From positions 1 through 28,146 of the IMG/VR virus record IMGVR_UViG_3300038557_000059: DNA of 28,146 bases. The stretch is one strand, 5' to 3'. How positions within the stretch are numbered: position 1 is the first letter of the stretch; every line of letters starts with the position of its first letter. The notes under the pieces are model-generated. The model searched no databases. It saw only the letters and a list, made by a program, of their open reading frames with translations, and was not told where the DNA came from. The translations under genes and the position numbers were made by a program. The stretch comes from a virus. Of this stretch, positions 7,795-23,080 are shown piece after piece.

Positions 7795-8213
7795 AGATCC
7801 ACCAGGACATCAAGCGCGGCCCCATTATCGCCCCGGCGCCGGTCCGCCTGAGGGCGAACCTACCGGGCGTCTCGGATCATGCGCAGATCCGGGCGGCCGA
7901 GCGCCTGCCCCGCCGCCTCAAGCGCTCGGACTGGCTCCAGCTCGTGCTCGACATCCTCGATCGCCGCGCCGCGCTGCTGCACGTCCGGATGGCGGGCATG
8001 GAGCGGCGGGAGACCTGGCTTTGCCTGGTCGCCGACGCGCCGATGCGCGTCATCTGGGCGCCGGAGACGGCGATGGTCCTGACCCTTATCGCCCCACGTG
8101 AGCGCAGCCTCTCCCACACCTTGCGGCACGACGACGCCAAGGCCTCTGGCCCGACCAAGCCTCAGCCGCGCCGGCAGGGCCGGATGGATCATGATTGGGC
8201 GGAGGCACCATGA
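7791..8213 (+). CDS. hypothetical protein, BrnT/DUF4258-like pattern
   Basis: 140 aa from ATG 7791 (ATGA both ends). Residues 28-45 read SDHAQIRAAERLPRRLKR, similar to the H-x4-R-x2-ER opening of DUF4258/BrnT-type small ribonuclease folds, and residues 89-108 (MRVIWAPETAMVLTLIAP) resemble the closing strands of the same folds. No antitoxin gene is next to it: the neighbours are a Trp-rich protein and the Mor-like activator. The similarity is short and could be superficial, so the product is best called hypothetical. Confidence 0.62.
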   Translation: MKIHQDIKRGPIIAPAPVRLRANLPGVSDHAQIRAAERLPRRLKRSDWLQLVLDILDRRAALLHVRMAGMERRETWLCLVADAPMRVIWAPETAMVLTLIAPRERSLSHTLRHDDAKASGPTKPQPRRQGRMDHDWAEAP

Positions 8214-8614
8214 CGCTCGATCGCTCCGTCATGCGCGGCTGGCCCGCTAGCCTGGTCGAGATCGCCGAACTGATCGACATCCCGGCCACGCTGCGCCTGG
8301 TGGATGCCTATGGCGGCATGACGCTCTACGTGCCCGAGAAGCTGGACCCTGCGCACCGGCTCGTGCAATCCATCGGCATGGCGGCGGCGGAGCTGCTCAT
8401 CGGCCGCTACGGACTCGAAAAGATCGAGGTGCCGACGCTGCACATGGCGCGCACCCGTAAGGCCCTGATCGCCTCGGCGGAGGGCCCGACCCATAAGGTG
8501 GCCCGGGCGCTCGGTTGCACCACGCGCTGGGTCCGCATGGTCCGCAGTGCGGCCTTGCCAGATCCGCGCCAGCCGGATTTGTTCGCACCCCCGGAAGACC
8601 ACGCGGCGGAGTAG
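8210..8614 (+). CDS. mor: Mor/C-family transcriptional activator
   Basis: 134 aa from ATG 8210, which has GGAGG at 8201-8205 and overlaps the previous stop; a TTG at 8195 in frame is less likely. The Mor signature is clear: a helical dimerisation region (about 15-70) with YGGMTLYVP at 34-42, then a C-terminal helix-turn-helix at about 93-112 (THKVARALGCTTRWVRMV). In Mu, Mor activates the middle promoter and its relative C activates the late promoters. Only one such gene is present here, at the end of the early block and directly before the lysis genes. It probably does both jobs. It ends in TAG. Confidence 0.9.
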   Translation: MTLDRSVMRGWPASLVEIAELIDIPATLRLVDAYGGMTLYVPEKLDPAHRLVQSIGMAAAELLIGRYGLEKIEVPTLHMARTRKALIASAEGPTHKVARALGCTTRWVRMVRSAALPDPRQPDLFAPPEDHAAE

Positions 8615-8638
8615 CGGCCGGAACTGCTTCCTCCGCCC
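8605..8638 (+). promoter_or_regulatory. candidate late-activator site upstream of lysis genes
   Basis: The 72-base gap between mor and the endolysin gene carries at 8619-8638 the motif cggaaNNNNttcctccgccc, with a ggaa-N4-ttcc palindrome at 8620-8631. The same motif recurs at 17161-17180. An outer inverted repeat ggcggag (8605-8611) / ctccgcc (8631-8637) surrounds it. The gap corresponds to the place of C-activated Plys in Mu. No convincing -10 box was found; GCTAAC at 8655-8660 is the nearest weak candidate. Activator binding is inference. Confidence 0.5.
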
Positions 8639-8686
8639 GATCAACCCGGGGCGGGCTAACCACGACACCTCAATCGGAGGTGCCCC

Positions 8687-9439
8687 GTGGAAGACAATTT
8701 CCTCATCACCGCAATGGGTCTGAAGTTCCTCTACGCCGCCGTGGGCGTCTATGCGGCCGTCATGGTGACGCGATGGCTGGACCGGCGCGCCGGTATCGTC
8801 TTCCGGGACATCGCGGCCAATCTCAGGCACTCGCCCACCGCCGCCGGCATCTACTTCGGCGCCCGCATCCTCGGCATCTGCATCCTGCTCGGCATGCTCG
8901 TCGGCTGCGGCTCCGCCCAGGCCAGCAGCTTCCCGACGCGGTATGACGCCCAGATCCGCGCCAGCGTTGAACGCTGGTGGCCCGATCATCCCGACTGGAT
9001 CGCGTGGCGCGCGCAGCTCTTCCAGGAAAGCCGGCTGAACCCCCTGGCAGTCAGCCCGGCGGGTGCCGCGGGCCTCGCGCAGTTCATGCCCGGCACCTGG
9101 CGCGACATGGTGCGCCACATGCGCCTGCCGCCCGGCGTCTCCCCCCATTCCGAGATTGCGATCGACGCGGGGGCCTTCTACATGGCCCGTCTGCGCCGCA
9201 CCTGGTCCGCCCCGCGCCCATCGCAGGAGCGTCACTTCCTCGCCCAAGCCAGCTACAATGCCGGCCCGGGGAACATCATCAACGCGCAGATGCTCTGCGG
9301 CGGCGCCCGGGATTGGGTGGACATCGCACCCTGCCTGTCGCGCGTGACCGGCCCGCGCCACAGCGCCGAGACCATCGGCTACGTCGCCAGCATCATACGC
9401 TGGCGCGTGCGGATGATGGCTGAGGGCGCAAGCCTGTGA
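8687..9439 (+). CDS. holin-like/lytic transglycosylase fusion endolysin
   Basis: 250 aa from GTG 8687, with GGAGG at 8676-8680. Residues 11-28 and 57-73 are membrane segments separated by an Arg-rich loop, so the loop is probably cytoplasmic, with both the N-terminus and the catalytic domain in the periplasm. LVGC at 71-74 also fits a lipobox. From about residue 84 a lytic transglycosylase (SLT) domain follows: catalytic E114 in QESRLNP, AGLAQFMPGTW (128-138), ASYNAGPG (188-195) and ET-x3-Y. It cleaves peptidoglycan during lysis. The first 70 residues resemble stand-alone small two-TM proteins that precede the endolysin in related Mu-like phages, hence the fusion reading. Rz/Rz1 follow. Confidence 0.88.
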   Translation: MEDNFLITAMGLKFLYAAVGVYAAVMVTRWLDRRAGIVFRDIAANLRHSPTAAGIYFGARILGICILLGMLVGCGSAQASSFPTRYDAQIRASVERWWPDHPDWIAWRAQLFQESRLNPLAVSPAGAAGLAQFMPGTWRDMVRHMRLPPGVSPHSEIAIDAGAFYMARLRRTWSAPRPSQERHFLAQASYNAGPGNIINAQMLCGGARDWVDIAPCLSRVTGPRHSAETIGYVASIIRWRVRMMAEGASL

Positions 9440-9900
9440 TGCTGGGCTGGCGCCTCTATCTCGGCCTCGCGCTGCTGGCACTGGCGGCCGGCACCGCGCT
9501 CTGGGTGGGCGTCACCTGGTCCCGCCTGGAGCGCAATGCGGCCGATGGGGCGCGCCGGGCCGAGATCGCCGAGGCATCGGCCAGCCGCAACGCCGCGGCG
9601 GTGGCCGAGCTCACCCAAGCCCACGCTGCCGAGATGGTGGCCGTCACTGAGCGCATCCAGGCCGCCGAGGCTGAGCGCCAGAGGCTCGAAACCCAGTTGG
9701 AGGCTCTCCGTGCCGATCCCTCGCATTCTGCGCTGGCTGCTCCCGTGCTTGATCTTGCTGTTGACCAGCTGCGCCTCCGTCGCGCCGGCACCGGAGGTGA
9801 GGGTGGTCCGGATGGCGCCCCCGCCAGCGCTGCTGGTCCCGCCCGCCCAGCCGAGCCTGCCGCCGCCCGGGGCGCGCCTGACCCAAGGCCGCATCGGTGA
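9439..9900 (+). CDS. Rz: Rz-like inner-membrane spanin
   Basis: 153 aa from ATG 9439 (TGATG junction; GTG 9436 is an equally placed alternative). It has an N-terminal membrane anchor at about 4-26 (WRLYLGLALLALAAGTALWVG) followed by a long Ala/Glu/Arg coiled coil at about 30-95, the layout of i-spanins. The C-terminal 55 residues are Pro/Ala/Gly-rich and overlap, out of frame, the Rz1 gene. In lysis, Rz bridges the inner membrane to Rz1 in the outer membrane and fuses them. Rz proteins diverge strongly, so assignment rests on topology, cassette position and the embedded lipoprotein. Confidence 0.8.
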   Translation: MLGWRLYLGLALLALAAGTALWVGVTWSRLERNAADGARRAEIAEASASRNAAAVAELTQAHAAEMVAVTERIQAAEAERQRLETQLEALRADPSHSALAAPVLDLAVDQLRLRRAGTGGEGGPDGAPASAAGPARPAEPAAARGAPDPRPHR

Positions 9901-9976
9901 GCTGCTGCTGCAATACGACGCGGCCCTGAACGCCGCCGTCGCCCAGCTGCGCGCCATTGCCGCCCTGTACGACTGA
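9710..9976 (+). CDS. Rz1: Rz1-like outer-membrane spanin lipoprotein, embedded in Rz
   Basis: 88 aa from GTG 9710 in the +1 frame relative to Rz, with TTGGAGG at 9697-9703 six bases upstream. It starts MPIPRILRWLLPCLILLLTSC: a basic N-terminus, a hydrophobic core and a lipobox LTSC (Cys at residue 21), followed by a Pro-rich mature part (APAPEVRVV, PPPALLVPPAQPSLPPPG) and a helical end. This is the classic Rz1 design. It overlaps Rz by 191 bases and extends 76 bases past its stop. A longer open frame upstream in this phase has no start with a ribosome site. Confidence 0.85.
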   Translation: MPIPRILRWLLPCLILLLTSCASVAPAPEVRVVRMAPPPALLVPPAQPSLPPPGARLTQGRIGELLLQYDAALNAAVAQLRAIAALYD

Positions 9977-10001
9977 CCACGTTCCACGGAGAGAGCCGCC
10001 T

Positions 10002-10373
10002 GTGTCCACGATCACGCTGAACGACGTCTGGGCCTGGTGGCCGCTGATCACAACGCTGGGTGGGGGCGGCATGGCCTATCTGCTGTGGCGCTTCCGGGGG
10101 GAGTTCGCCACCAAGGCGGATCTGGCCGCGCTGGCCAGCGACAGTGCGCAGACCGGGCGTCGGATCGAGAAGATCGAGCGGGATCTGCAGCACCTGCCCA
10201 GCAAGGAGGACATCCACCGCCTCCAGCTCGCCATCACGGAGATGAACGGCAAGCTCAACGAAATCCGCGCGGAATCGCGCGGGGATCGGGACCTGCTGAC
10301 CCGTGTCGAGGCGGCCCTGACCCGCCATGAGGACATCCTGGCCAGCGCCAGCCGCCCCGGAGGCCGCACGTGA
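10002..10373 (+). CDS. DUF2730-type membrane-anchored coiled-coil protein
   Basis: 123 aa from GTG 10002, with CGGAGAG around 9988-9994. It has a membrane segment at about 10-31 (VWAWWPLITTLGGGGMAYLLW) and then a charged coiled coil (RRIEKIERDLQHL, RLQLAITEMNGKLNEIR). This matches the DUF2730 family found next to the lysis/terminase junction of Mu-like phages. Function unknown; a lysis-associated or membrane role is possible because of its location. The 25-base gap before it is one of the few breaks in the operon. It ends overlapping the next GTG. Confidence 0.78.
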   Translation: MSTITLNDVWAWWPLITTLGGGGMAYLLWRFRGEFATKADLAALASDSAQTGRRIEKIERDLQHLPSKEDIHRLQLAITEMNGKLNEIRAESRGDRDLLTRVEAALTRHEDILASASRPGGRT

Positions 10374-10726
10374 CCCATCGTGAGCCCATGGCCGAGGCGT
10401 GGCGCGCACATCTGCGCATCGCCATCCTCCGCGCCCTCAATGACGATCCCGGCAAGGCCGGCAATGAAAGCCTGCTGGTGGACCTGGTTCAGGCCGTCCA
10501 CATCAGCGCGGACCGGGACCAGGTGCGTGATGAGCTGCTCTGGCTGCACGAGCGGAACCTGGTCCAGGCCAATGTGGTGCGCGGCTCCATGGTCGCGCTG
10601 CTGACCGAGCGCGGCGCCATGGTGGCCGAGGGCAAGCGGACCGAGGAGGGTGTGAAGCGCCCGAACGTCACCGCCCAGCTCGCACGCAAGGCGCTGAAAA
10701 TCTCTCTCGACGATCTGAAGTACTGA
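10370..10726 (+). CDS. VpaChn25_0724-type winged-helix phage protein
   Basis: 118 aa from GTG 10370 (GTGA overlap, CGGAGG at 10358-10363); ATG 10388 is a shorter alternative. The pattern RIAILRALNDDPGKAGNESLL, then DRDQVRDELLWLHERNLVQ, then MVALLTERGAMVAEGK is that of small winged-helix proteins found in Mu-like phages before the terminase (VpaChn25_0724 family). Its role is not established; DNA binding is expected from the fold. It is followed by the DUF1804 protein at a TGATG junction. Confidence 0.77.
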   Translation: MTHREPMAEAWRAHLRIAILRALNDDPGKAGNESLLVDLVQAVHISADRDQVRDELLWLHERNLVQANVVRGSMVALLTERGAMVAEGKRTEEGVKRPNVTAQLARKALKISLDDLKY

Positions 10727-11226
10727 TGGCCCATCCCCCGGAGACCACGGCGAAGCTGCGCGCGGCCTACGTCTATGAGCGGCTGGGCCTGGAGGCGGCA
10801 GCCGAGAAGGCCGGCGTGTCCATCGCCAGCGCCCGCCGCTGGAAGCGCGACGCCGAGAGCGCCGGCGACGACTGGGACCGCGCGCGCTCCGCCGCCCGGC
10901 TGGCCGGCGATGGCAATTCGTTGCTGAGCCAGATGATCCTGGATGACTACCTGACCATGCACCAATCCACGATCGAGGGCGTGAAGGATGCGGCTGACAT
11001 GACGCCGCTCCAGAAGGCCGAGGTCATGTCCCGCCTCGCCGACGCCTTCACCAAGACCATGGCGGCGGTCTCGAAGGCCTCGCCGCAGCTCAACCGGCTG
11101 GGCGTGGCGACGGACGTCCTCCAGCGCCTCTCGCGCTACGCGGCGGAAGTGCATCCGCATCTGGCACCGGCGCTGCTGGAGGTGCTGGAGCCCTTCTCGG
11201 TCGAGCTGGCGCGGGAGTATGGGTGA
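10726..11226 (+). CDS. DUF1804 protein, probable small terminase subunit
   Basis: 166 aa. The N-terminus (MAHPPETTAKLRAAYVYERL, then EAAAEKAGVSIASARRWKR) is the DUF1804 signature with a helix-turn-helix, and the rest is helical. In Mu-like phages this family sits just before the large terminase and is regarded as the small subunit that recognises packaging DNA. Here four unrelated genes separate it from the large subunit at 12923. Junctions are TGATG on both sides. Confidence 0.82.
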   Translation: MAHPPETTAKLRAAYVYERLGLEAAAEKAGVSIASARRWKRDAESAGDDWDRARSAARLAGDGNSLLSQMILDDYLTMHQSTIEGVKDAADMTPLQKAEVMSRLADAFTKTMAAVSKASPQLNRLGVATDVLQRLSRYAAEVHPHLAPALLEVLEPFSVELAREYG

Positions 11227-11693
11227 TGAAATGCCTCACCGTCTGGCAGCCATGGGCCAGCATGATCGTGCTGGGCATCAAGCCCTATGAGTTTCGCGGC
11301 TGGGCCGCTCCGAAATGGGTGCAGGGCCAGCGCATCGGCATCCATGCCGGCGCCCGCCTGACGCGTCGCACGGAGGTGGATGAGCTGCTGGACGGCCTCC
11401 GAATGGAGAAGGCGGGCATGGGCCTGCCCACGACGCTCCAGGTGGATGCTGCGATTGCCTTCTTGGAGGAGGTGATTGTCGGCCACTGCATGGGCCTCCC
11501 GACCAGTGCCGTCATCGGCACCTCAACCATCGGCCGGCCAGTGCTGGCAAAGGACCTGGCCGAGCTGCGCGCCGACAGTGACCGCGTGGATCACACGAAA
11601 TGGGCGTGGCCCATGCTTGACGTCCAGCGTGCGCTTCCGCCGCGCCCGGCGACGGGCGCGCAGGGCTTCTGGAATTGGCGGGGAGAGCTGTGA
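11226..11693 (+). CDS. ASCH-domain protein
   Basis: 155 aa from ATG 11226 (TGATG; GTG 11223 in frame is possible). The start MKCLTVWQPWASMIVLGIKPYEFRGW is the opening of an ASCH domain (PUA-like fold), in which the G-x-K-x-x-E-x-R stretch lines the ligand pocket; RIGIHAG at 37-43 is the next strand. ASCH proteins bind RNA or nucleosides, and some are N4-acetylcytidine amidohydrolases; which applies here cannot be told. It is the first gene of an accessory block between small and large terminase and may be cargo rather than packaging machinery. Confidence 0.8.
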   Translation: MKCLTVWQPWASMIVLGIKPYEFRGWAAPKWVQGQRIGIHAGARLTRRTEVDELLDGLRMEKAGMGLPTTLQVDAAIAFLEEVIVGHCMGLPTSAVIGTSTIGRPVLAKDLAELRADSDRVDHTKWAWPMLDVQRALPPRPATGAQGFWNWRGEL

Positions 11694-12394
11694 TGGATGA
11701 TCTCGACACCATCAAGGCCCGCATCCGAAAGCTGATGGCCCGCACAACTGCCAATGGCTGCACCGAGGCTGAGGCGATGGCGGCGGCCGCGAAGGCCATG
11801 GCGATGATGCGCGAGCACGGGCTCTCGCCGGATCAGATCGAATGCGGCCAGCACAGCATCCCGCTCGGCCGCCGCCGCGCGCATGTGATGGACCTGCTGT
11901 GGAGCCGCATCGCCCACGTGTGCCGCTGCCAGAACTGGCGCGCGGATGACGGGCGCGTCTGGCATGTCGTCTATTTTGGCCGGGAGCCCTGGCCCGAGAT
12001 CGCGGCCTGGCTGCATGGCGTGGTGCAAGGCGCGCATAAGCGCGGCATGCGGGACTTCACCAAGGGCGGCAGCTACAAGGCGCGCCGCACCAACAAGACC
12101 CGTGCGGCCGCGCGGCTCGCGTTCAGCGAGGGCTTCGTGCTCGGCGTCAATCGCCAGCTGCTGGATCTGCTGCTGCCCGCCGAAGAGGCGGAGCGCGCGG
12201 CTGATCAGGCCCTCGCGAAGCGGGCGCTCGATGCGCTGGGCATCGAATTCGGGAAGGCGAAGGGGCCGAAGCTGGGCGGCGGCGGCGGGCAGTTTGAGCG
12301 GGACCGCATCGCCGGGGCGATCAGCGGCCGCGGGACCACGCTGCATTGGGGTGTCGGGAAGGCCGCGCAGGGTCGGATTGGAGGCTCTGCATGA
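11693..12394 (+). CDS. DUF2786 domain protein
   Basis: 233 aa from ATG 11693 (TGATG junction). Residues 3-50 match DUF2786: IKARIRKLMARTTANGCTEAEA, AAKAMAMMREHGLSPDQIE. Residues 60-160 form a second domain with YFGREPWPEIAAWLHGVVQGA and a basic stretch (KARRTNKTRAAARLAFSEGFVLG). The C-terminus is Gly-rich and basic. DUF2786 proteins occur widely in phages and plasmids; their function is unknown, and DNA binding is often suggested. It is part of the accessory insert before the large terminase. Confidence 0.78.
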   Translation: MDDLDTIKARIRKLMARTTANGCTEAEAMAAAAKAMAMMREHGLSPDQIECGQHSIPLGRRRAHVMDLLWSRIAHVCRCQNWRADDGRVWHVVYFGREPWPEIAAWLHGVVQGAHKRGMRDFTKGGSYKARRTNKTRAAARLAFSEGFVLGVNRQLLDLLLPAEEAERAADQALAKRALDALGIEFGKAKGPKLGGGGGQFERDRIAGAISGRGTTLHWGVGKAAQGRIGGSA

Positions 12395-12693
12395 TCGTCG
12401 TCCGCGTGGAACTGCACAGTGCGATCACCGGCCAAGTCACCGAGCTGGCCCGGATGCACATCAGCAACGAAAGCGGAGGCGGGCGGCTGCGTGACTACTC
12501 CGTGGCATCGTTCACGGGGCGTTCAACGGCGCAGCTGAACCGCCAGCGGGTGCAGCGGCAGGCGCGCGTCGAGTGCTGGCCGAGTGCGGAGCTTCATGTG
12601 TGGAACCTGGTGGCGGTCGCGCTCGCCAGCATGGACTACGGCATCATTCGGCCGGCATCGGTGCGGCCGGACCCGAGAGTGAGGAGCGGCTGA
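12391..12693 (+). CDS. conserved small phage protein, 100 aa, unknown function
   Basis: 100 aa from ATG 12391 (ATGA overlap). The opening MIVVRVELHSAITGQVTELA, the middle ARMHISNESGGG and the later VASFTGRSTAQLNRQ and LHVWNLVAVALASM form a pattern I recall from many alphaproteobacterial prophages without any assigned role. The predicted fold is strands followed by a helix. It ends at a TGATG junction with a small membrane protein. Confidence 0.68.
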   Translation: MIVVRVELHSAITGQVTELARMHISNESGGGRLRDYSVASFTGRSTAQLNRQRVQRQARVECWPSAELHVWNLVAVALASMDYGIIRPASVRPDPRVRSG

Positions 12694-12926
12694 TGTCCGA
12701 CCTCGATCGGCTTGCCTACCTCATCGGCGCCGGCGTCATCACGCTGGCCTTCCTCGCCCTTGCGGTGCTTGGTTGCGTGATCATCTGGGCGGCGCTCACC
12801 GCGACCTGGGAGGTAGCGCGCCAGCTGTGGCGCCATCACGTGACCCTGGGAAGGAGCCGGGCCGAATGGCAGGCCACACCCGGGGAGGCCTGGTTCAGCG
12901 CATTCTGGCGGTCGGTGCAGAGATGA
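12693..12926 (+). CDS. small membrane protein, 77 aa
   Basis: 77 aa from ATG 12693. One strong membrane segment lies at about 8-37 (LAYLIGAGVITLAFLALAVLGCVIIWAAL), long enough for a single pass with an extended helix. A basic, Trp-rich C-terminal tail follows (RQLWRHHVTLGRSRAEW). It lies directly before the large terminase (ATGA overlap). It could be a holin-like or superinfection-related membrane peptide; nothing in the sequence decides this. Confidence 0.68.
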   Translation: MSDLDRLAYLIGAGVITLAFLALAVLGCVIIWAALTATWEVARQLWRHHVTLGRSRAEWQATPGEAWFSAFWRSVQR

Positions 12927-14602
12927 ATTCTGCCCCGCGCCTCCGCGCCAAGACGAAGGCCGAATTCACGCGCGAGATGGCCGACCTGGCTGCCGATCTC
13001 CGGCGCCGGATCGAGGCTGAGGTCACCGGCCTGGACAACGCCCCCGCACAGGTGGCGGAGCGTCGCGCCAAGGCCCTGGCGCCGGATGGCTTCGCCTATT
13101 TCTGCCGGACCTATTTCCCGCACTACATCAAGCACCCGGATGCGCGCTCGCGCCTGCATGACTACCTCTATCAGCGCCTGCCGGAGATCCTGAACACGGC
13201 CAGCGGCCAGAACGACGTCATCGCCGCCCCGCGTGGCGAGGCGAAGTCCACCATCTGCTCGCAGCTCTTCCCGCTGTGGTGCATCGCCAAGCGGATGAAG
13301 CACTACATCCTCATTCTCATGGACGCCTTCGACCAGGCGGCCGTGATGCTGGAGGCGATCAAGGCCGAGCTGGAGGCGAACCCGCGCCTGGCGCTCGACT
13401 TCCCCGAGATCTGCGGCCGTGGTCCGGCGTGGAAGGAGGGGGTCATCGTGACCAGCTCCGGCGTCAAGATCGAGGGCGTCGGCTCCGGCAAGCGGCTGCG
13501 CGGCCGCCGCCACGGCCCCCACCGGCCCGACCTGGCCGTGCTCGACGATATCGAGAATGACGACAACGTCCGCTCGCCCGAGCAGAGGGATAAGCTGGAA
13601 GGGTGGGTCGACAAGGCGGTGCTGAATGTGGGCGCTGCCGATGGCTCGCTGGACGTCATTTATATCGGCACCACGCTTCACTACGACGGCGTGCTGCTGC
13701 GCAAGCAGCGCAACCCTCTCTGGCGCGCGGCCAAGTTCGCCAGCATCGTCCGCTGGCCCGACGACATGACCGCCTGGGAGAGGTGGGAGGAGCTGCTGCG
13801 CAACGAGGGCCCCGACGCGGCCGATCGCTACTACGCCCAGCACCAGGTGCGCATGGACCGCGGCGCCGTCGTCTCCTGGCCGGGCGTGCGGCCGCTGGTC
13901 GCGCTGATGAAGCTGCGCGTCAAGATCGGCACCCACGCCTTCGACAGCGAGCAGCAGAACGACCCGGTCTCCGGCGCCGATGCTCTGTTCGGGACGGTCA
14001 CTCTCTGGGTCAACCGGCTGCCGGATTGGGTGTTCTTCGGTGCCTGCGATCCGAGCCTTGGCAAGCAGAACAAGAGCCGTGACCCCTCGGCCATCCTGAT
14101 CGGCGGCGCAAACCGGGAGACCGGCACGCTGGATGTGGTGGAGGCGCTGATCCGCCGCCGCCTGCCAGACCGGATGATCGAGGACATCATCACCCTGGAG
14201 GAGGAGTACCGCTGCCTCCGCTGGGCGATCGAGAGCGTCCAGTTCCAGGAGTTCTTCCGCACATCGCTGGTATCGCGCGGCGCCGCCCGTGGCGTTCCCG
14301 TGCCCGCCATTCCCGTGGTGCCCTTTGGCGACAAGCAGCTGCGCATCGAGCGCCTGCAGCCGCATGTCGCCAATGGCCTGATCCGGCTGCACGCCAGCCA
14401 AACCGTTCTGCTCGACCAGATGCGGCACTACCCGATGGTGGATCACGATGACGGCGTGGACGCGCTGGAGATGCTCTGGACCGTCTCGCTTGGCCGCGCC
14501 GTCTCGGCCGGGGCGACGGGGACACGGCCGCCGGCGCCGCCGGCGCGGGGGCTCGGCCCGGCGATGTTCGGCGGCCGCAGGGTCAGCATGAGGAGGCGTT
14601 GA
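12923..14602 (+). CDS. terminase large subunit
   Basis: 559 aa from ATG 12923. The N-terminal ATPase has a deviant Walker A APRGEAKST (102-110) and a Walker B LAVLDDIEN (204-212). The C-terminal RNase-H-like nuclease starts at FFGACDPSLGKQ, with later acidic residues (LDVVEAL; VDHDDGVDALEM at the C-terminal end), as expected for TerL. The enzyme translocates phage DNA into proheads and cuts it. The last 35 residues are Pro/Gly/Arg-rich. A longer frame upstream overlaps the small membrane gene and is not used. It is followed at a TGATG junction by the portal. Confidence 0.92.
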   Translation: MNSAPRLRAKTKAEFTREMADLAADLRRRIEAEVTGLDNAPAQVAERRAKALAPDGFAYFCRTYFPHYIKHPDARSRLHDYLYQRLPEILNTASGQNDVIAAPRGEAKSTICSQLFPLWCIAKRMKHYILILMDAFDQAAVMLEAIKAELEANPRLALDFPEICGRGPAWKEGVIVTSSGVKIEGVGSGKRLRGRRHGPHRPDLAVLDDIENDDNVRSPEQRDKLEGWVDKAVLNVGAADGSLDVIYIGTTLHYDGVLLRKQRNPLWRAAKFASIVRWPDDMTAWERWEELLRNEGPDAADRYYAQHQVRMDRGAVVSWPGVRPLVALMKLRVKIGTHAFDSEQQNDPVSGADALFGTVTLWVNRLPDWVFFGACDPSLGKQNKSRDPSAILIGGANRETGTLDVVEALIRRRLPDRMIEDIITLEEEYRCLRWAIESVQFQEFFRTSLVSRGAARGVPVPAIPVVPFGDKQLRIERLQPHVANGLIRLHASQTVLLDQMRHYPMVDHDDGVDALEMLWTVSLGRAVSAGATGTRPPAPPARGLGPAMFGGRRVSMRRR

Positions 14603-16083
14603 TGAGGGTGTTGAAGGGGGTCCGCAACGCCGTCGCGGGGGTGGTGCAGCGGATGGCGCGCTTCGTGGAGGCCGCGCCCGATGATCCGCTGGAGAGCGCG
14701 GGCGCCGGCCGGGACAATGACGCCGGCTGGTCCCGCCTCTCCGGCCGTATCGGCGAGCGTGACCTGGTGCCGATGGACCAGACCCGCATGCAGGAGGTGG
14801 CGGCATATCTGTGGGAGAGCAATCCGCTCGCCAACCGTCTCATCGAGCTGCCCGTGGCCTTCCTGCTGGGCGAAGGGGTGCGTCTGGAAGCGAACAACCC
14901 GGAGGCGCAGCGCTGGCTGCACGAGTTCTGGTCGGACCCGCTGAACAACCTGGACATCAACCTCGCCTCCCATGTGCGGGAGCTCGCGATCTTCGGCGAG
15001 CAGGTCTGGCCAGTGCACCGCAATTCGATCACGGGGGTGGTGCGCCTGGCCAAGATCGATCCCTCGCGCATCGTTTCCGTCATCACGGATCCGGACAATG
15101 ACGCGGTGGTCATCGGCGTCGAGACGCGGGACCTGCACAACACGGGCGAGCTGCGCACCTGGCGCGTCATCTACGCCGCCTCCGAGGTGACCCTGTTCAG
15201 CGAGCGGACCGAGGCGCTTCGGGCCGCCATGACCGGGGGCGAGTGCTTCTACTGGCGCATCAACACCCTCTCCAGCGGCCGGCGCGGCCGATCCGATCTG
15301 CTGGCCTCGGCCGATCACGTGGACGCGCATGAGCAGCTGATGTTCGGCGAGGTGGAGCGTGCCTCCGTGCTGCGCTCGGTCTCCTGGGACGTGAAGCTGA
15401 CCGGCGCGACGCAGGAGATGCTGGACGAGCGGGCGCGCACCACGCCGCCGCCAGCGCCGCTCTCGGTGCGGTTTCACAATGAGAACGAGGAATGGAATCT
15501 CCTCACGCCCACGCTCAACTCGGCCGATGCGGGCGCGGCGACGCGGATGGTGCGGAATCACGTGCTGGGCGGCGCGTCGATCCCCGAGCATTGGATGGCC
15601 GATGGTGGGGATGTGAACCTCGCCACCGCCTCCAGCATGGGCGAGCCGACCTACAAGGTCATGACCCAGCGGCAGCGCCTCTGGCGCTCCATCCTGGAGG
15701 ACGTGGGCGGCTATGTCATCCGCCGGCGCCTGGCCGCCCTCGGCATGGCGGATCTGGCGGGCGAGCCCGAGTACCAGGCGCGCGCGATATTCCCACCGCT
15801 CACCGCCAAGGATGTGGCGAAGTTCGCCACCGTCTTTGCCCAGGTGGTGGTGGGGGCGGTCCAGGCGATGCAGGCGCATGCCATGTCCATGGAGAGCGCC
15901 GTCCGCCTGATCACGACGGCGGCCGAGGCGCTCGGCCTGGAGGTGGACCCGGCCGAGGAGCTGGAGCGCGCCCGCGTCGAGCTGGCCAAGGCGGCCGAGG
16001 CGGATGTGTTCGTCGACCCGCCCGGCCTGCCCGCGGCACCCATCCCGGGCCTGGCCCCCGGTGACGCGCGGGAGCCCGCATGA
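14602..16083 (+). CDS. portal protein
   Basis: 493 aa from ATG 14602, with a perfect AGGAGG at 14591-14596; TTG 14599 is discarded. Features of SPP1/HK97-type portals are visible: YLWESNPLANRLIELPVAFLLGEGV at about 70-95, an ELAIFGEQVWPV strand, SSGRRGRSDLLASADHVDAHEQ in the clip/wing region, then VLGGASIPEHWMADGGDVN before the crown helices. It does not look like the DUF935 portal of Mu itself (gp29), so the head module seems of a different lineage. The dodecameric ring forms the DNA entry vertex. It overlaps the gpF-like gene as ATGA. Confidence 0.87.
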   Translation: MRVLKGVRNAVAGVVQRMARFVEAAPDDPLESAGAGRDNDAGWSRLSGRIGERDLVPMDQTRMQEVAAYLWESNPLANRLIELPVAFLLGEGVRLEANNPEAQRWLHEFWSDPLNNLDINLASHVRELAIFGEQVWPVHRNSITGVVRLAKIDPSRIVSVITDPDNDAVVIGVETRDLHNTGELRTWRVIYAASEVTLFSERTEALRAAMTGGECFYWRINTLSSGRRGRSDLLASADHVDAHEQLMFGEVERASVLRSVSWDVKLTGATQEMLDERARTTPPPAPLSVRFHNENEEWNLLTPTLNSADAGAATRMVRNHVLGGASIPEHWMADGGDVNLATASSMGEPTYKVMTQRQRLWRSILEDVGGYVIRRRLAALGMADLAGEPEYQARAIFPPLTAKDVAKFATVFAQVVVGAVQAMQAHAMSMESAVRLITTAAEALGLEVDPAEELERARVELAKAAEADVFVDPPGLPAAPIPGLAPGDAREPA

Positions 16084-16976
16084 CGGATGAGGAGCGCACG
16101 AAGCGCTTCCTGAAGGAGCGCGAGGCCCGCCTCCGGGAGGGGGTGCGCAACCAGCGCAAGACGGCGGCCGAGGTGAAGGCCGCCCTGGAAGCGGCCGCGC
16201 GGATCATCCTGGAGACCCTGGCCAAGGCGCCCTCCGACTATCGGCGCTGGCAGCTGACCGAGCTGCAGCGCGAGGTGCAGCGCGCGCTCGCCGCCGTCAC
16301 CCAACCGGCCACGGAAAGCCTGCTGGCTGGAATCGCGCGCAGCTGGGATGCCGGGGCCGCGCTGATTGACGCGCCGCTGGCCGCCGCCGGCGTCGAGGTC
16401 TCCGCCCAGCTCGTGGCGTTGGATCCCCGGACGCTGAACGCCATGCGCGAATTTGGCGCGGAGCGCATGAAGGACATCACCGCGAAGGTCGCCCAGCGCA
16501 TCAATGCGGAGATTGCCCAGGCCGCCATCGGGACGCAGACGCCCTTCGAGGCGGCGCGCAAGGTGGGCGCCATCGTGGAGGAGGGCGGCATGCGCCGCGC
16601 CACCACCGTTGTGCGGGACGGCCTCGGCCGGGCCTATTCCACAGCGACGCAGCAGCGGCAGGAACAGGCGAGGGAGGTGCTGCCCCAGATGCAGAAGCAG
16701 TGGCGCCGCTCCGGCAAGCTGCATTCCCGTTTCGGGCATGACGCGATCGACGGCCAGGTGCGCGACGTGGACAAGCCCTTCGATCTGCCGGGCGGCATCA
16801 AGCTCATGTTCCCGCGCGATCCGGCTGGGCCGATCGGCGAGACGATCAATTGCGGCTGCACCGCGCTGCCCTTCATGGCATCGTGGAAGATGTCCCGACC
16901 TGGTCGTCAAGCTTTCACGATTGAGGAGATCGCGGCGGACCGGAACAAGCGTGCCCTGGCCGAGCTCAATGACTAG
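16080..16976 (+). CDS. gpF-like phage head morphogenesis protein
   Basis: 298 aa from ATG 16080. It has an N-terminal charged helical half and then the Mu F-like domain at about 205-265: RRSGKLHSRFGHDAIDGQ, DLPGGIKLMFPRDPAGP and the closing NCGCTALPF with NCGC at 257-260. In this family the His and Cys residues are conserved, and the protein is a minor head component beside the portal. It ends in TAG followed by the largest non-coding gap of the window (16977-17244). Confidence 0.87.
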   Translation: MTDEERTKRFLKEREARLREGVRNQRKTAAEVKAALEAAARIILETLAKAPSDYRRWQLTELQREVQRALAAVTQPATESLLAGIARSWDAGAALIDAPLAAAGVEVSAQLVALDPRTLNAMREFGAERMKDITAKVAQRINAEIAQAAIGTQTPFEAARKVGAIVEEGGMRRATTVVRDGLGRAYSTATQQRQEQAREVLPQMQKQWRRSGKLHSRFGHDAIDGQVRDVDKPFDLPGGIKLMFPRDPAGPIGETINCGCTALPFMASWKMSRPGRQAFTIEEIAADRNKRALAELND

Positions 16977-17013
16977 GATCCAGGGTCGATCCGGCCGGCC
17001 TTCCACAGGGCCG

Positions 17014-17031
17014 CCTGGGGGCTTCCCCGGG
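17014..17031 (+). terminator. candidate hairpin terminator after the gpF-like gene
   Basis: Thirty-seven bases after the gpF stop, cctgggg (17014-17020) can pair with ccccggg (17025-17031), one pair being G-T, around a gctt loop. It is followed by gtggttata rather than a true T-run, so intrinsic termination would be weak. The stem and its location at an operon break are the evidence. Confidence 0.4.
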
Positions 17032-17069
17032 GTGGTTATACCGGCCAGGGTGCCAAAACCCGCCTGGAC

Positions 17070-17091
17070 CCGTTTAACCACCGTTTAACGG
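17070..17091 (+). promoter_or_regulatory. tandem CCGTTTAAC repeat, possible operator
   Basis: CCGTTTAAC occurs at 17070-17078 and again at 17081-17089, an 11-base period (about one helix turn). The second copy forms the palindrome ccgtt-t-aacgg (17081-17091). This is an AT-rich island in a very GC-rich gap and could bind a regulator or help promoter opening. No binding data. Confidence 0.4.
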
Positions 17092-17146
17092 CGGTCCTGA
17101 AAACACCCTCCAACCCCCCATCTCGGTCCCGCGCGGATCCCGGGCC

Positions 17147-17188
17147 CCGGACAGGGGCTACGGAAGCGGTTCCTCCGCCCCTGTCCGG
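17147..17188 (+). repeat. perfect 12-bp inverted repeat with inner hairpin
   Basis: ccggacaggggc (17147-17158) is exactly complementary to gcccctgtccgg (17177-17188). The 18-base loop holds an inner ggaa/ttcc pair (17162-17165 / 17170-17173). It lies 57 bases before the next gene and could be an RNA hairpin or a protein-binding dyad. No T-run follows, so a simple terminator is unlikely. Confidence 0.7.
17161..17180 (+). promoter_or_regulatory. candidate late-activator site upstream of head genes
   Basis: Second copy of the motif cggaaNNNNttcctccgccc (17 of 20 bases identical to 8619-8638). It lies inside the inverted repeat and 64 bases before the GTG at 17245. It corresponds to the position of the C-activated PI promoter before the head protease gene in Mu. 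No good -10 element is visible at the expected distance. Confidence 0.5.
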
Positions 17189-17244
17189 ACGCCACCGCCA
17201 TGGTGCCGCCTCGCCCCGCTTTGGGGCCAGAGCGGAGATGATAC

Positions 17245-17691
17245 GTGGCCAAACCCCCGAAGCCTGCAGAGCAATCCGGCGCCGCCGTCGCGGTGGTGTC
17301 GAGCGAGGCGGTCGAAGGTGCCGACCAGGCGCCCAGCAATCCAGGATCAGGCACCGCGCATTCGGAGGGTCCGGGCGAGGCCGATGAGGCGGTCCGCCGC
17401 GTGGCGGACCTGAGCGGCGCCGTGCTGGCCGATCCAGCGGCCGCCATGGCCGCTGGCGTCGAGGTTGCTGTGGCAGTGGACGGCGAGGCGGCCGTTCTGG
17501 CCGATGCCGCCTTGGGGCAGACCCTGCACTACGCAACGCGGAAGCCCTCGGACGCCGAGATCCGCGCGGCGATCGCCGAGTATTTCGATATCCCGGAGAC
17601 GGACATCCTCGCCTGGAACGTCGAGACCGGGCGCGTCGTCACCATCGACGGTCGCAAGCTAACGCCCGACATGCCGGGCACGCGCGCCTGA
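17245..17691 (+). CDS. hypothetical head-region protein, 148 aa
   Basis: 148 aa from GTG 17245 with GGAG at 17234-17237; the frame is closed upstream by TGA at 17239. The first 50 residues are low-complexity (Ala, Gly, Glu, Pro). Residues 90-140 contain a folded part (LHYATRKPSDAEIRAAIAEYF, then ETDILAWNVETGRVVTIDGRKL). It is the first gene after the large gap and overlaps the protease-capsid gene by one base (TGATG). A head accessory, decoration or scaffold helper is possible from position only. Confidence 0.65.
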   Translation: MAKPPKPAEQSGAAVAVVSSEAVEGADQAPSNPGSGTAHSEGPGEADEAVRRVADLSGAVLADPAAAMAAGVEVAVAVDGEAAVLADAALGQTLHYATRKPSDAEIRAAIAEYFDIPETDILAWNVETGRVVTIDGRKLTPDMPGTRA

Positions 17692-19787
17692 TGCGCCGCC
17701 ACGCCATCCTGGAGGCGGTCACCGCCGGCGAGGGCGCCTCGCCCCGTGCCTATCGCGTCCGCGTGATCTGCGCCGGCCTCTCCCACAACGGCAACCTCTA
17801 TCCCGATGCAGTGCTGCGCGAGGCGGTTCCCCTCTTTGCTGGCGCTCGCGTCTTCGTGAAGGGCGACCGGGAGCACCTGGCCGGGGCGGGCAAGGATGTC
17901 CGCAACCTGATCGGCGGCCTGTCCGAGCCGCGCTTCGTGGAGGGCGCCTCGTCCGACCAGGGCGCGATCGAGGCCGTGCTCACCCTCATCATCGGCGATG
18001 ACGACCCGGTGGCCACGCGGCTGCGCGAGGCCGTGTCCCGCCAGATGACGGACCTCTTCGGCCTGTCCGTCGATGTCTCCGGGACTTTGGTGGCTGGGCC
18101 GCGCGGCACCCGCGTCGCCCGCAAGTTCCTGAAGGTCAACTCCGTGGATCTGATCGTCGAGCCTGGGGCCGGCGGGCAGGTCATCTCCTTTCTTGAAGCC
18201 AGCGAAGGAAACCCTCCCGCTATGGATGTCGCCCAACTCATCGCCCTGATCCAGGCTGCCAATCCGGCGCTGCTGGAGGGTGTGGACCTCTCCTCGGCCA
18301 CGCTCGAATCCCTGCAGGCCATCCTGGCCACCGCCCTCCAGCCCGCCGAGCGGACGACGGAGAGCGATGGCACCGACCCCGCGAGCATGACGCGCGAGCA
18401 GCTGATCGCCGGAATCACCGCGATCGACCCGGCCAGGCTGCCGGCCGACATCAACGCGGCGACGGATGACGAGCTGCGCGCCATCCTCGCCGCCGCCGTC
18501 CCGCCCGCGACCACCGCCATGCTGGAGGCGCTGATCGACCGGCGCGACCGCATGCACGGCCAGATCAACACCTGCGCCCTGCCGGACGCCAGCAAGGCGC
18601 GCCTGCGCACCGAGCTGCGTCAGGGCCGTTTCACGGAGGCCACCCTGACCCAGCGCATCCAGGAGGAAGCGTCCTACCTCGCCAGCCTCGGCCTCGGCCG
18701 CGGCGGCCTGCAGGGCGTCGGCGGGGGGCAGAACTTCCGCGTCACCGAAGACCAGGCCGAGAAGCATGACCGCATGCTGGAGGCGTTCTTCGACCCCGCC
18801 CACAAGGACCACAAGCACTCCCGCAGCTTCAAGGCCTGCTACGTGGCCCTGACCGGGGACACCAACGTCACCGGCCGCATCCAGCAGGCCGGACGCTTCG
18901 CCGAGGCGCTGAACAGCGGCAGCTTCGCCAACGTGTTGGGCAACAGCATGACCCGCCGCATGATCGCGGATTATCGGGCGGCGGTGGATCTCGATATGTG
19001 GCGCCTGCTCGCCACCGTCGTGCCCGTGGGCGACTTCCGGACGCAGGAGCGCACGCGCTTCGGCGGCTATGGCAACCTGCCCACGGTGGCCGAAGCCGCC
19101 CCCTACGTCGCGATGACCAGCCCCTCGGATGAGAAGGCGAGCTACGCGGTGGTCAAGCGTGGCGGCATCGAGACCATCACGCTGGAGATGATCAAGAACG
19201 ACGATGTGGGCGCCATCCAGCGCATCCCCGTCAAGATGGCGCGCGCGGCCAAGCGGACGCTGGCGCAGTTCGTCCTCGATTTCCTCCGGACCAACCCGAC
19301 CATCTACGACACGCTGGCGCTGTTCCACGCCACCCACAACAACCTCGGCACCGGGGCGCTGGCCAGCGGCACCTATGCCGCTGCGCGCCTCGCCATGATG
19401 AAGCAGACTGAGGCGGGTTCGGGCGAGCAGCTGGGCATCGGGCCCAAGTACCTCTGGGTGCCGCCCGAACTGGAGGAGGCGGCGGCCAACCTGTTCCGCC
19501 GCAACACCAACCTGGACGCCACCTTCGTCCAGTCCCTCACGCCCACCATCGTGCCGGTCTGGTACTGGACCGACGCGAACGATTGGGTGGCGACGGCCGA
19601 TCCGCTGGACATCCCGCTGATGGAGGTGGGCTTCCTGGATGGTGAGGAGGAGCCCGCCCTGCTCGTCCAGGACAGCCCGACCTCCGGCTCGTACTTCAGC
19701 AATGACCAGCTGACCTACAAGATCCGGCACATCTACGGCGCCACCGTCGTGGATTTCCGCGGCGCCTATAAGGCCGTCGTGGCCTGA
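17691..19787 (+). CDS. prohead protease / scaffold / major capsid fusion
   Basis: 698 aa. Residues 20-170 are a prohead protease: YRVRVICAGLSHNGNLYPD, H62 (GDREHLAG), GLSVDVSG with S126, and VDLIVEPGAGG, the His/Ser/Asp pattern of assemblin-fold proteases. Residues about 178-355 are helical and scaffold-like. Residues about 356-698 are an HK97-fold major capsid protein of the gpT-like type (FHATHNNLGTGAL, GPKYLWVPPELEEAA, NDQLTYKIRHIYG). In Mu the protease/scaffold (I/Z) and capsid (T) are separate genes. An internal ATG at 18222 may give the capsid part alone. Cleavage by the protease would mature the head. Confidence 0.85.
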   Translation: MRRHAILEAVTAGEGASPRAYRVRVICAGLSHNGNLYPDAVLREAVPLFAGARVFVKGDREHLAGAGKDVRNLIGGLSEPRFVEGASSDQGAIEAVLTLIIGDDDPVATRLREAVSRQMTDLFGLSVDVSGTLVAGPRGTRVARKFLKVNSVDLIVEPGAGGQVISFLEASEGNPPAMDVAQLIALIQAANPALLEGVDLSSATLESLQAILATALQPAERTTESDGTDPASMTREQLIAGITAIDPARLPADINAATDDELRAILAAAVPPATTAMLEALIDRRDRMHGQINTCALPDASKARLRTELRQGRFTEATLTQRIQEEASYLASLGLGRGGLQGVGGGQNFRVTEDQAEKHDRMLEAFFDPAHKDHKHSRSFKACYVALTGDTNVTGRIQQAGRFAEALNSGSFANVLGNSMTRRMIADYRAAVDLDMWRLLATVVPVGDFRTQERTRFGGYGNLPTVAEAAPYVAMTSPSDEKASYAVVKRGGIETITLEMIKNDDVGAIQRIPVKMARAAKRTLAQFVLDFLRTNPTIYDTLALFHATHNNLGTGALASGTYAAARLAMMKQTEAGSGEQLGIGPKYLWVPPELEEAAANLFRRNTNLDATFVQSLTPTIVPVWYWTDANDWVATADPLDIPLMEVGFLDGEEEPALLVQDSPTSGSYFSNDQLTYKIRHIYGATVVDFRGAYKAVVA
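18205..18224 (+). promoter_or_regulatory. candidate internal translation start for scaffold-capsid product
   Basis: An AAGGAAA ribosome-site-like stretch at 18205-18211 precedes an in-frame ATG at 18222-18224 (residue 178). The protein from there, MDVAQLIALIQAANPALLEG, looks like a natural N-terminus. Mu makes its scaffold Z from an internal start within I, a precedent for this arrangement. Spacing of 10 bases is longer than ideal. Confidence 0.45.
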
Positions 19788-20452
19788 TGCTGGAGGATCT
19801 CCGCACGCTGGTGGCCGATCTGGTCCGGGATGATGCTGGTCGCATCAGCCCAGGGCAGCTCGATCGCGCCATCGCGGCGGGGGTTGCCCAGTACAACAAG
19901 GATCGCCCGCGCCGCTGCGTCGAAGACGTGGTGGCGGAGGGCGGCTCCCGCCTGGAGGTGCCGGACGGCGCCAACCGCGTCGTCGCCGTGGAGGCACCGG
20001 CCGGTATCGTGCCGCCGATCATGCTGCCCGGCTCGACCTGGGGGCATTACCATGCGCCCGAGGCTCTCTATCTGCTGCTGACCCGCCCGCTGGCGGCCGG
20101 CACGCCCGTCCGGCTGACCCTGACGCGGCCGCATTTGCTGACCAACGAGGCGGACAGCATTCCGGAGGCGGACCGTGAGGCCTTGGCGAGCTACGCCGCC
20201 GCCGTTCTGTTTGACCAGGTGAGCGCCGCCACCAGCGGGGACAGCAACCCGTCCATCCCGGCCGATGCCGTGAACCACGCCTCCAAGCCGGAGAGCTTCG
20301 CCAAGCGGGCCGAGCGCCTCCGGCAGCGGTACTACGATCTGCTTGGCATCGACGCGAAGCGCGTCCAGCCCGCGTCGAGCATGGCAAGCCACGCCCCGGG
20401 CGCCGGCCATGGTGGCCCGCGTCTGACCCATTCCCGCCGCCGGCGTCCCTGA
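19787..20452 (+). CDS. probable head-tail connector/adaptor protein
   Basis: 221 aa at a TGATG junction after the capsid gene. The helical N-terminus (LRTLVADLVRDDAGRISPGQLDRAIAAGV) and the later ADREALASYAAAVLF and ERLRQRYYDLLG resemble head-completion or adaptor proteins that follow the major capsid in many phages (Mu gp36-like position). The C-terminal 35 residues are basic and disordered. Assignment is mainly by position; no signature motif is certain. Confidence 0.62.
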   Translation: MLEDLRTLVADLVRDDAGRISPGQLDRAIAAGVAQYNKDRPRRCVEDVVAEGGSRLEVPDGANRVVAVEAPAGIVPPIMLPGSTWGHYHAPEALYLLLTRPLAAGTPVRLTLTRPHLLTNEADSIPEADREALASYAAAVLFDQVSAATSGDSNPSIPADAVNHASKPESFAKRAERLRQRYYDLLGIDAKRVQPASSMASHAPGAGHGGPRLTHSRRRRP

Positions 20453-20955
20453 TGGCCGAGCCGGTCTCCCTTCGCTTCGACGACGCGGCGATGCGCCGCC
20501 TGCTGGCCCGCACGCCCGACATCGTGCTGGAGGAGATGAGCCGCGCCGTCGTGGAGGTCAGCATGCTGGCCGAGCGCGAGGTGAAGGAGCGCACGCCCAC
20601 CTCCGGCGCGGGCACGCTGCGCGACAGCATCGGCGCCCTGCCGGTAACGATCAGTGGCACGCGGATCCGGGGCGGTGTTGGCACCGCGCTTTCCTATGCC
20701 GCGCCTGTCGAAGACGGCAGCAAGCCACATTGGGCGCCAATCGAGCCCCTGCTGGATTGGGTCCAGCGCAAGCTCGGCAAGACGGGCGAGGAGGCCGAGG
20801 GCATCGCCCGGGCCATCCGCTTCAAGATCGCGATGCATGGAGCGCCTGCACACCACATGTTCCGGGACGGCTTCGCCTATGCCTCGCCGATGGCCATGGA
20901 GATCTTCGCGGCCGCAGTGGACCGCGCCGCCGTCCGGATCGAGGGCGGCGCATGA
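20452..20955 (+). CDS. HK97 gp10-like / virion morphogenesis protein
   Basis: 167 aa from ATG 20452. The pattern EREVKERTPTSGAGTLRDSI, then GTRIRGGVGTALSYAAPVEDGSKPHW, then AHHMFRDGF is that of HK97 gp10-like/phage virion morphogenesis proteins, which complete the head-tail interface (neck). The order connector, gp10-like, terminator supports this. It overlaps the next gene as ATGA. Confidence 0.82.
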   Translation: MAEPVSLRFDDAAMRRLLARTPDIVLEEMSRAVVEVSMLAEREVKERTPTSGAGTLRDSIGALPVTISGTRIRGGVGTALSYAAPVEDGSKPHWAPIEPLLDWVQRKLGKTGEEAEGIARAIRFKIAMHGAPAHHMFRDGFAYASPMAMEIFAAAVDRAAVRIEGGA

Positions 20956-21578
20956 GCAACGCCACGCTGGAGAGCGTTCGGGCCGCCATCGGGGCCATCA
21001 TCAAGGCCGTGCCCGAGATCGGGGTGGTTCACCCCTATGAGCGGTATTCGGTGCAGCAGCAGAAGCACGCCCAGCATTTCATGTGGCAACCACCAGGCCG
21101 CCGCGAGGCGGAGATGCGCGGGTGGTTCATCCGACGCATCGCCACACGCGAGATCGACGACACCAGCACCCGGAGCCAGATCCAGATTGACTGGCAGATC
21201 CGTGGCTTCATGGCCATCCAGGATGCCCTCGCCAGCGAGATCACCTTCGACAACCTGATCGAGCAGATACGGGACGCCTTCCGAGCGGACCTGACGCTGG
21301 GCGGCTTGCTCGACGTTGCGCTGCCCGCAGGCGCGCCGCTCGGCCCCCAGCTGGTCGAGAGCGTCCCGTACATGATGGCGGGCGTGCTGTGTCACGGCGC
21401 ACGGCTGGACTGGACCACGAGGTTCAACCGTTCGCAGGCGGAAGCCGATCCGTCCAGCGGCGAATTCCGCATCTTCCACGCGAACTGGGACGTGCCGCCG
21501 ATCGGCAATGTCCAGCCGCCCACGCCGGCCGACGCGACCGCCGACGCCACCGATCACGTCCTGACCCGGGGAGAATAG
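20952..21578 (+). CDS. probable tail terminator protein
   Basis: 208 aa from ATG 20952. The helical start (LESVRAAIGAIIKAVPEIGVVHPYERY) and the strand-rich middle (REAEMRGWFIRRIATREID, QIQIDWQIRGFMAIQDA) suggest the compact fold of tail terminator proteins that cap the tail tube. It lies between the neck gene and the sheath, the usual place (Mu gp37-38 region). The C-terminus is disordered. It ends in TAG three bases before the sheath ATG. Confidence 0.65.
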   Translation: MSNATLESVRAAIGAIIKAVPEIGVVHPYERYSVQQQKHAQHFMWQPPGRREAEMRGWFIRRIATREIDDTSTRSQIQIDWQIRGFMAIQDALASEITFDNLIEQIRDAFRADLTLGGLLDVALPAGAPLGPQLVESVPYMMAGVLCHGARLDWTTRFNRSQAEADPSSGEFRIFHANWDVPPIGNVQPPTPADATADATDHVLTRGE

Positions 21579-21580
21579 CC

Positions 21581-23053
21581 ATGGCCATTCCGTTCACGCA
21601 CATCCCGATTGATATCCGCACGCCCGGCAACTACGTCGAGGTGGACAACAGCCGCATGCAGGCGGCTGCCTCGATCTACCCGACGCGCGTCATCATCATC
21701 GGGCAGATGGAGGCATCGGGCAGCGCCCCGCCTCTCACGCCCCAGCTCGTCATCTCGCCCGCGCAGGCGGTGGGCCGGTATGGCGCGCGCTCTCATGTCG
21801 CGCACATGATCGCGGCCTTCGTCCGCGCGAACCCGACGCTGGAGCTCTGGGCCATGGGCGTGCTGGATGTGGGCGGCGGCAGCCAGGCGGTCGGCCAGGC
21901 GCTCTTCGCGGGCTCGGCCACGGCCGCCGGCGTCGCCAACCTCATGGTGGGCGGCCGGCGCTACCGGGCGCCGGTGACGGTGGGCATGACGGCGGTGCAG
22001 GCGGCGACGGCCATGGTGGCGGCCATCAATGCCGACACCAGCGCGCCCTTCACCGCGTCCAACGCGACGACGCCGGCGCGGGTGGACATAACCGCCACCC
22101 ACAAGGGCCTTGCCGGCAATGAGATCGACATCCGGACAGCCTATTACGATGACGACGTTCTGGCGGCCGGCCTGACCCTCACCATCACGCCCATGGCGGG
22201 CGGGGCCAGCAACCCGGACATCACCGCGGCGCTCGCCGCGCTGGGCGACATGTGGTTCACCGACATCGTGATCCCCTGGAATGACGGTGCCAACCTGGCC
22301 GTGCTCCAGGCGGACCTGGTGGACCGCTTCGGCCCGATGCGCATGCAGGACTGCCACGCCTGGCGTCCGCAGACGGGCGACCTGGCCGCGCTCTCGGCCC
22401 ATGGCGTCACGCGCAACAGCCCGCATATCAGCGTGCCCGCCCTCTACAAATTCCCGATGCCGCCCTGGGTCAACGTGGCCGCCGCCGCGGCCGTTTGGAT
22501 CCGCGCCATGACCAACGATCCGGCCCGGCCGGTGCAGACGCTCCCCATCCCTGGGATCCTGCCGCCCGTCGTGAAGGATCGCTTCTCGCGTGCCCAGCGC
22601 GACATCCTGCTGCACAAGGGCATCTCCACCTTGGTGGTGGACGCGGGCGGCACGGTGGTGACCGAGCGCGTCGTGACCGAGTATCAGACCAATGCCTTCG
22701 GCGCGGCCGACACGTCGTTCCTCAATGTCGAGACGGTCAAGACGATCTCTTACCTGCGGTATGACATTCGCAACTTCTTCTCGACCAAGTATCCGCGCCA
22801 CAAGCTCGCGAGTGACGGTACGCAGTTCGGCCGTGGCCAGCCGGTGATGACGCCGAAGCTCGCGAAGGCGGAGCTGATCGGCCGCTTCGCCGTGTGGGAG
22901 GAGATGGGTCTGGTGGAGAACCGCGAGCAATTCGCGGCGGACCTCGTCGTCGAGCGCAGCCTGACCGATCCGGACCGGCTGGACGCCATCATCCCGCCCG
23001 ACTGCATCAATGGCTTCCGCGTCGGCGCCTTCCTCCTGCAGCCCCGGCTTTAA
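21581..23053 (+). CDS. L: contractile tail sheath protein (gpL-like)
   Basis: 490 aa from ATG 21581. The N-terminus MAIPFTHIPIDIRTPGNYVEV, with VIIIGQM and GRYGARSHVAHMIAAF following, is typical of Mu gpL-type sheath proteins. The C-terminal domain has KTISYLRYDIRNFFSTKYPRH and VERSLTDPDRLDAIIPPD, as in the family. It forms the contractile outer tail and hence places this phage with myovirus morphology. It is the only gene in the window ending in TAA. A 27-base gap follows before the tube gene. Confidence 0.93.
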   Translation: MAIPFTHIPIDIRTPGNYVEVDNSRMQAAASIYPTRVIIIGQMEASGSAPPLTPQLVISPAQAVGRYGARSHVAHMIAAFVRANPTLELWAMGVLDVGGGSQAVGQALFAGSATAAGVANLMVGGRRYRAPVTVGMTAVQAATAMVAAINADTSAPFTASNATTPARVDITATHKGLAGNEIDIRTAYYDDDVLAAGLTLTITPMAGGASNPDITAALAALGDMWFTDIVIPWNDGANLAVLQADLVDRFGPMRMQDCHAWRPQTGDLAALSAHGVTRNSPHISVPALYKFPMPPWVNVAAAAAVWIRAMTNDPARPVQTLPIPGILPPVVKDRFSRAQRDILLHKGISTLVVDAGGTVVTERVVTEYQTNAFGAADTSFLNVETVKTISYLRYDIRNFFSTKYPRHKLASDGTQFGRGQPVMTPKLAKAELIGRFAVWEEMGLVENREQFAADLVVERSLTDPDRLDAIIPPDCINGFRVGAFLLQPRL

Positions 23054-23080
23054 CCCACCCGAACAGAGGAGATCGCCGCC

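Follow-up and report, generated by a model that had tools for sequence, protein, structure and literature searches.

Late-gene control beyond Mu itself is largely unmapped. In Mu, Mor acts first, at Pm, and C then acts at the late promoters, of which there are four, with Plys standing before the lysis genes and PI before the head protease gene. At Pm, the site to which Mor binds is a dyad centred at -43.5, and the promoter is without a -35 hexamer (PMC4287176, PMC4390567). For Fc02, a B3-like phage of the same family, RNA-seq resolved the late genes into three clusters: the first is headed by genes for holin-endolysin and packaging, the second consists mostly of structural genes, and the third begins with a gene that is unnamed in the text (PMC9936078). 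No description of the sites reported here was found in open-licence papers, a search that may miss earlier studies, or ones behind subscriptions, of B3, D3112 or Mu-like prophages.

The stretch of DNA analysed here (the window) is a virus fragment of 28,146 bases in which a gene for a Mor/C-like protein immediately precedes the lysis genes (Table 1). Our reading of it, to which we assign a probability of about 0.87, is that one Mor/C-family protein, putatively bound as a dimer to both of two sites, turns on two late operons. The activator, as a product of the early operon, would bind both dyads. Each dyad would be the upstream element of a late promoter whose -10 box lies ~33 bp away from the dyad centre and in which no -35 box can be recognised. 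From its place at ~-43.5 it would recruit the host RNA polymerase, resulting in expression of a lysis-packaging-portal operon from a predicted start at ~8669, and of a capsid-tail operon from one at ~17211. Since a single activator would serve both promoters, one step would replace the two (Mor, then C) of Mu; the timing of the switch, like the extents of the operons, is a prediction.

Table 1. Features of the window that bear on the proposed late switch
Feature	Position	Strand	Remarks
Mor/C-family activator gene	8210..8614	+	134 aa; last gene before lysis genes
Site 1	8619..8638	+	dyad GGAA-N4-TTCC 8620-8631, centre 8625.5; right-hand TCC/GCC conserved
Predicted -10 box, late promoter 1	8657..8662	+	TAACCA; position from 53 aligned sites
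Inferred late operon 1	8687..16976	+	family matches; extent inferred from tight gene packing
Lytic transglycosylase	8687-9439	+	family match; inferred late operon 1
Rz-like spanin	9436-9900	+	family match; inferred late operon 1
DNA-binding protein	10726-11226	+	family match; inferred late operon 1
Large terminase	12773-14602	+	family match; inferred late operon 1
Portal	14599-16083	+	family match; inferred late operon 1
Mu F-like head protein	16080-16976	+	family match; inferred late operon 1
Site 2	17161..17180	+	dyad GGAA-N4-TTCC 17162-17173, centre 17167.5
Predicted -10 box, late promoter 2	17199..17204	+	CATGGT; same in L004
Inferred late operon 2	17245..28146	+	family matches; extent inferred; record ends within operon
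Small gene	17245-17691	+	inferred late operon 2
Protease-capsid	17691-19787	+	family match; inferred late operon 2
Sheath	21389-23053	+	family match; inferred late operon 2
Tube	23081-23440	+	family match; inferred late operon 2
Tail chaperone	23437-23817	+	family match; inferred late operon 2
Tape measure	23929-25824	+	family match; inferred late operon 2
Baseplate	25821 onward	+	family match; inferred late operon 2

The motif that marks the two sites, CGGAA-N4-TTCCTCCGCCC, has copies identical at 17 of 20 bases that lie, where the original prediction had placed them, in gaps of 72 nt (8615-8686) and 268 nt (16977-17244), and a search allowing up to two mismatches produced no further copies in the whole record. 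The two sites also occupy, as that prediction had it, the places of Mu Plys (ahead of the lysis genes) and PI (ahead of the head protease gene). Its description of the gaps as the only two large ones was roughly right: a third, of 111 nt (23818-23928), looks like a continuation of the tail chaperone gene in a shifted frame. At three mismatches ~0.6 chance matches are expected in the window, and the similarity of the sites might on that count be an accident of GC-rich DNA, but such an accident is scarcely credible in light of the gap shuffles (the best of 400 dinucleotide shuffles of both gaps reached 16/20, and none reached 17), the conservation of the motif in relatives and the recurring core and spacing among other phages. 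The palindrome in the window is a weak one, confined to GGAA/TTCC, and the case against chance rests mainly on the relatives. An inverted repeat does surround each copy, as had been proposed (8605-8611/8631-8637, 7 bp, at site 1; 17147-17165/17170-17188, 19 nt at 84%, at site 2), but at site 1 its left arm falls on the last bases of the Mor-like gene, and the outer arms vary among relatives, for which reason the outer repeat was rejected as a functional unit.

Among the findings named in advance as counting against the prediction was absence of the motif from the matching gaps of close relatives that share the Mor-like protein. The motif was instead present in both equivalent gaps of IMGVR_UViG_3300002461_000361 (L003/L004), whose activator is 80% identical to that of the window, and in two Roseococcus contigs (L084 and L085) it was found after the activator gene, in the lysis gap. 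In the five sites compared from the window and these close relatives, CGGAA and TTCC were invariant while the four central bases varied, and invariant halves with a variable centre and a changing outer repeat are the footprint that would be expected of a protein on two half-sites; a stem formed in RNA would not be expected to leave it. It is accordingly very unlikely that the motif works as RNA, with the Mor-like gene and the packaging genes each followed by a terminator or a leader hairpin: the RNA of site 2 folds well (z = -3.3), but that of site 1 is no more stable than shuffled sequence (z = -0.85), the outer arms are unconserved, neither site has a T run or a terminator call, no Rfam match was obtained, and a hairpin has no need of the -10 box at fixed spacing that is described below.

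The survey of wider Mu-like phages, gathered via both the capsid protein and the activator, used a location-blind search in which related palindromes were paired, one from a 280-base stretch around the stop codon of the activator and the other from anywhere in the downstream DNA, and the best pair was taken; no use was made of gene positions. Approximately two dozen phages had a phage-specific dyad just 3' of a single Mor/C-type gene and a copy of it before the head-protease gene, the second copy falling in many of them between the Mu F-like and protease-capsid genes. Example pairs are TATGGAAGNNCTTCCATA (L047), GGGGTGAACNGTTCACCCC (L015), GGTGAAATATTTCAC (L012), TGGTGACANGTGTCACCA (L029) and CTGAAGCGNTTCAG (L099, L101, L105 and L111). 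A stricter pair search, in which the -10 bases were required and the null was drawn from swapped phages (true relatives included, making its p-values conservative), retained most of the phages and gained a probable second site in L076. No clear dyad pair was found in several relatives (L018, L022, L032, L069, L079, L086 and others), and the addition of longer contigs with tail regions gave almost no extra sites, the exceptions being Rhizobium phage RR1-B (four) and L011 (one extra, near its right end). A near-perfect further copy of the L011 dyad lies near the right end of contig L117 (~4159, minus strand, oriented as L011). Ten prophage loci were later sampled from the family of bacteria to which the Roseococcus genome belongs: L163 and L152 had twin sites accompanied by -10 boxes, L155 had a marginal one, and none of the other seven had one that was clear; L154 had a twin palindrome without the -10 bases. 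The palindrome score by itself does not single out the window, fails for some GC-rich phages and did not recover the Mu late sites, indicating that it misses weak dyads.

The two key bases of a sigma-70 -10 box are the A at -11 and the T at -7. When 53 sites were aligned on their dyad centres, A was present at +34 in 78% and T at +38 in 76%, and the combination A-N3-T at +32 to +34 occurred in 44 of the 53 (26 phages), versus six expected from nearby offsets and seven of the 53 sites on the opposite side of the dyad; as the aligned sites are not independent, the binomial value for this enrichment is not to be read literally. The distance from the dyad centre to the -10 A in the window is 33, which, if transcription began 7 bases beyond the box, would put the dyad centre at ~-43.5, as for the Mor site of Mu Pm. 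The box of late promoter 1 has the -12 T and -11 A and is without the -7 T (it reads TACCCA in L004 and L084), and no sigma-70 promoter-like site was found within 8000-17700. The window thus has the layout of a Mor/C-dependent promoter, i.e., a dyad near -43.5, a -10 box and no -35, relative to the predicted starts.

The activator of the window matched phrog_836, 'late transcriptional activator', at E=2.8e-24. Mor and C of Mu are members of the sister family phrog_532 and match phrog_836 as well (1.2e-10 and 2.1e-11), and Pfam Mor (PF08765) was matched by 15 of 16 aligned relatives (best 8.3e-10) and not by the window activator itself. By profile match, the protein is assigned to the Mor/C superfamily (PF08765; phrog_532/phrog_836). 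Its predicted structure (pLDDT 88) did not return Mor (1RR7) in a PDB fold search, and among viral models the single match below E=0.001 was to a Mor-like factor (E=2.2e-4, TM only ~0.3). With phrog_836, 23 of 24 records gave one match and the remaining one gave two adjacent fragments of a split gene. In L019 (1759-2224), the Mor-like gene is split over two overlapping frames, by a frameshift or a sequencing error. A second Mor/C paralogue, as in the two-step cascade of Mu, was not found in the window, which has one match and, being a fragment, leaves room for a second gene outside it.

Site similarity correlated with activator identity at r=0.58 and with capsid identity at r=0.32, the partial correlations being 0.55 and -0.26, respectively; the sequence of a site is thus more closely tied to the activator than to the capsid. 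This link bears on the proposal that the dyads are operators of another regulator, such as a phage repressor, Ner or a host factor, at the same late promoters. Finding a dyad ahead of a -10 box does leave the identity of the protein unspecified, but site and Mor-like protein vary together even when capsid relatedness is allowed for, and a place at ~-43.5, instead of a -35 box, is the position of a Mor-type activator, making another regulator quite unlikely. The core of the original prediction, that one Mor/C-like protein acts on both late operons through putative binding to the motif, is supported, but its description of a one-activator programme as unusual is not: nearly all of the records searched have a single match, only one such gene is annotated in either of phages B3 and D3112, and a one-step version of the Mu scheme appears to be common among relatives.

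Mu and the window share an activator superfamily and the genomic places of their sites (for Mu, Plys and PI with C, and Pm with Mor); in both, the dyad replaces the -35 box, and the distance from its centre to the -10 box agrees within ~1-2 bp (a reading by eye of Mu Plys as TTAT...ATAA puts the -10 A at ~+35). They differ in dyad sequence, in the use of Mor and then C versus one activator, and in having four late promoters versus two sites found; further late promoters (PP, Pmom) were seen neither in the window, which ends within tail genes, nor in most longer relatives. Pseudomonas phage B3 (L133) likewise has one mor-type gene, and it has exactly three dyads, copies of TTTTCG-N6-CGAAAA (11566, 19835 and 26818), each with A-N3-T at +32, which lie ahead of its genes for holin, head protease and tape measure, respectively, and are candidate late promoters of B3; unlike the window, it has a phrog_532 activator, located at the other genome end, and a third site, that before the tape measure gene. 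The dyads of B3, together with the late clusters of its relative Fc02, count as independent support for the proposed switch. RR1-B (L087) resembles the window in having one phrog_836 activator, whose gene is immediately followed by a dyad, and a further dyad ahead of the head protease, but its dyad is CCGGAACCGNGTTCCGG and its four ACCGGAACCGNGTTCCGGT copies (11532, 18996, 26073 and 31110) stand before lysis-side, protease, tape measure and baseplate genes. In D3112, another Pseudomonas phage, a single phrog_836 activator is also encoded just before the lysis genes, but the palindrome-pair search found no convincing twin dyad in it, nor in EBPR siphovirus 4.

We lean towards the view that a large Mu-like branch uses one activator and mostly two promoters, with a lineage-private dyad that co-evolves with the activator, in which case its late-promoter code would be readable directly from genome sequence. 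With the twin-dyad and -10 rule, promoter positions can be put forward for testing in about two dozen phages, each site paired with its activator, and these pairs form a natural set for studying DNA choice by Mor/C proteins and the two-step cascade versus the one-step switch.

Several further features of the window were observed. The head gap contains a direct repeat, CCGTTTAAC, twice, 11 bp apart (17070-17089), also seen in L003 (10259-10280); the equivalent gap of Mu has a strong gyrase site. A third candidate site, the GGAAGCTGTTCC dyad at ~1119-1136, was rejected as conserved coding sequence of an early gene and probably a coincidence; it has CATGGT at promoter distance and is common to the window and L084. 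After the tail chaperone gene, another frame is open up to the tape measure gene (23780-23936), with a T run at ~23785, and the gap there is likely a programmed frameshift, as in other tail chaperones. Lastly, an in-frame TAG (1839-1841) with an ATG directly after it splits the Mu-type DNA-binding domain (1566-1841) from the rest of the transposase (1842-3671), a gene that in L084 is a single open frame of 691 aa.
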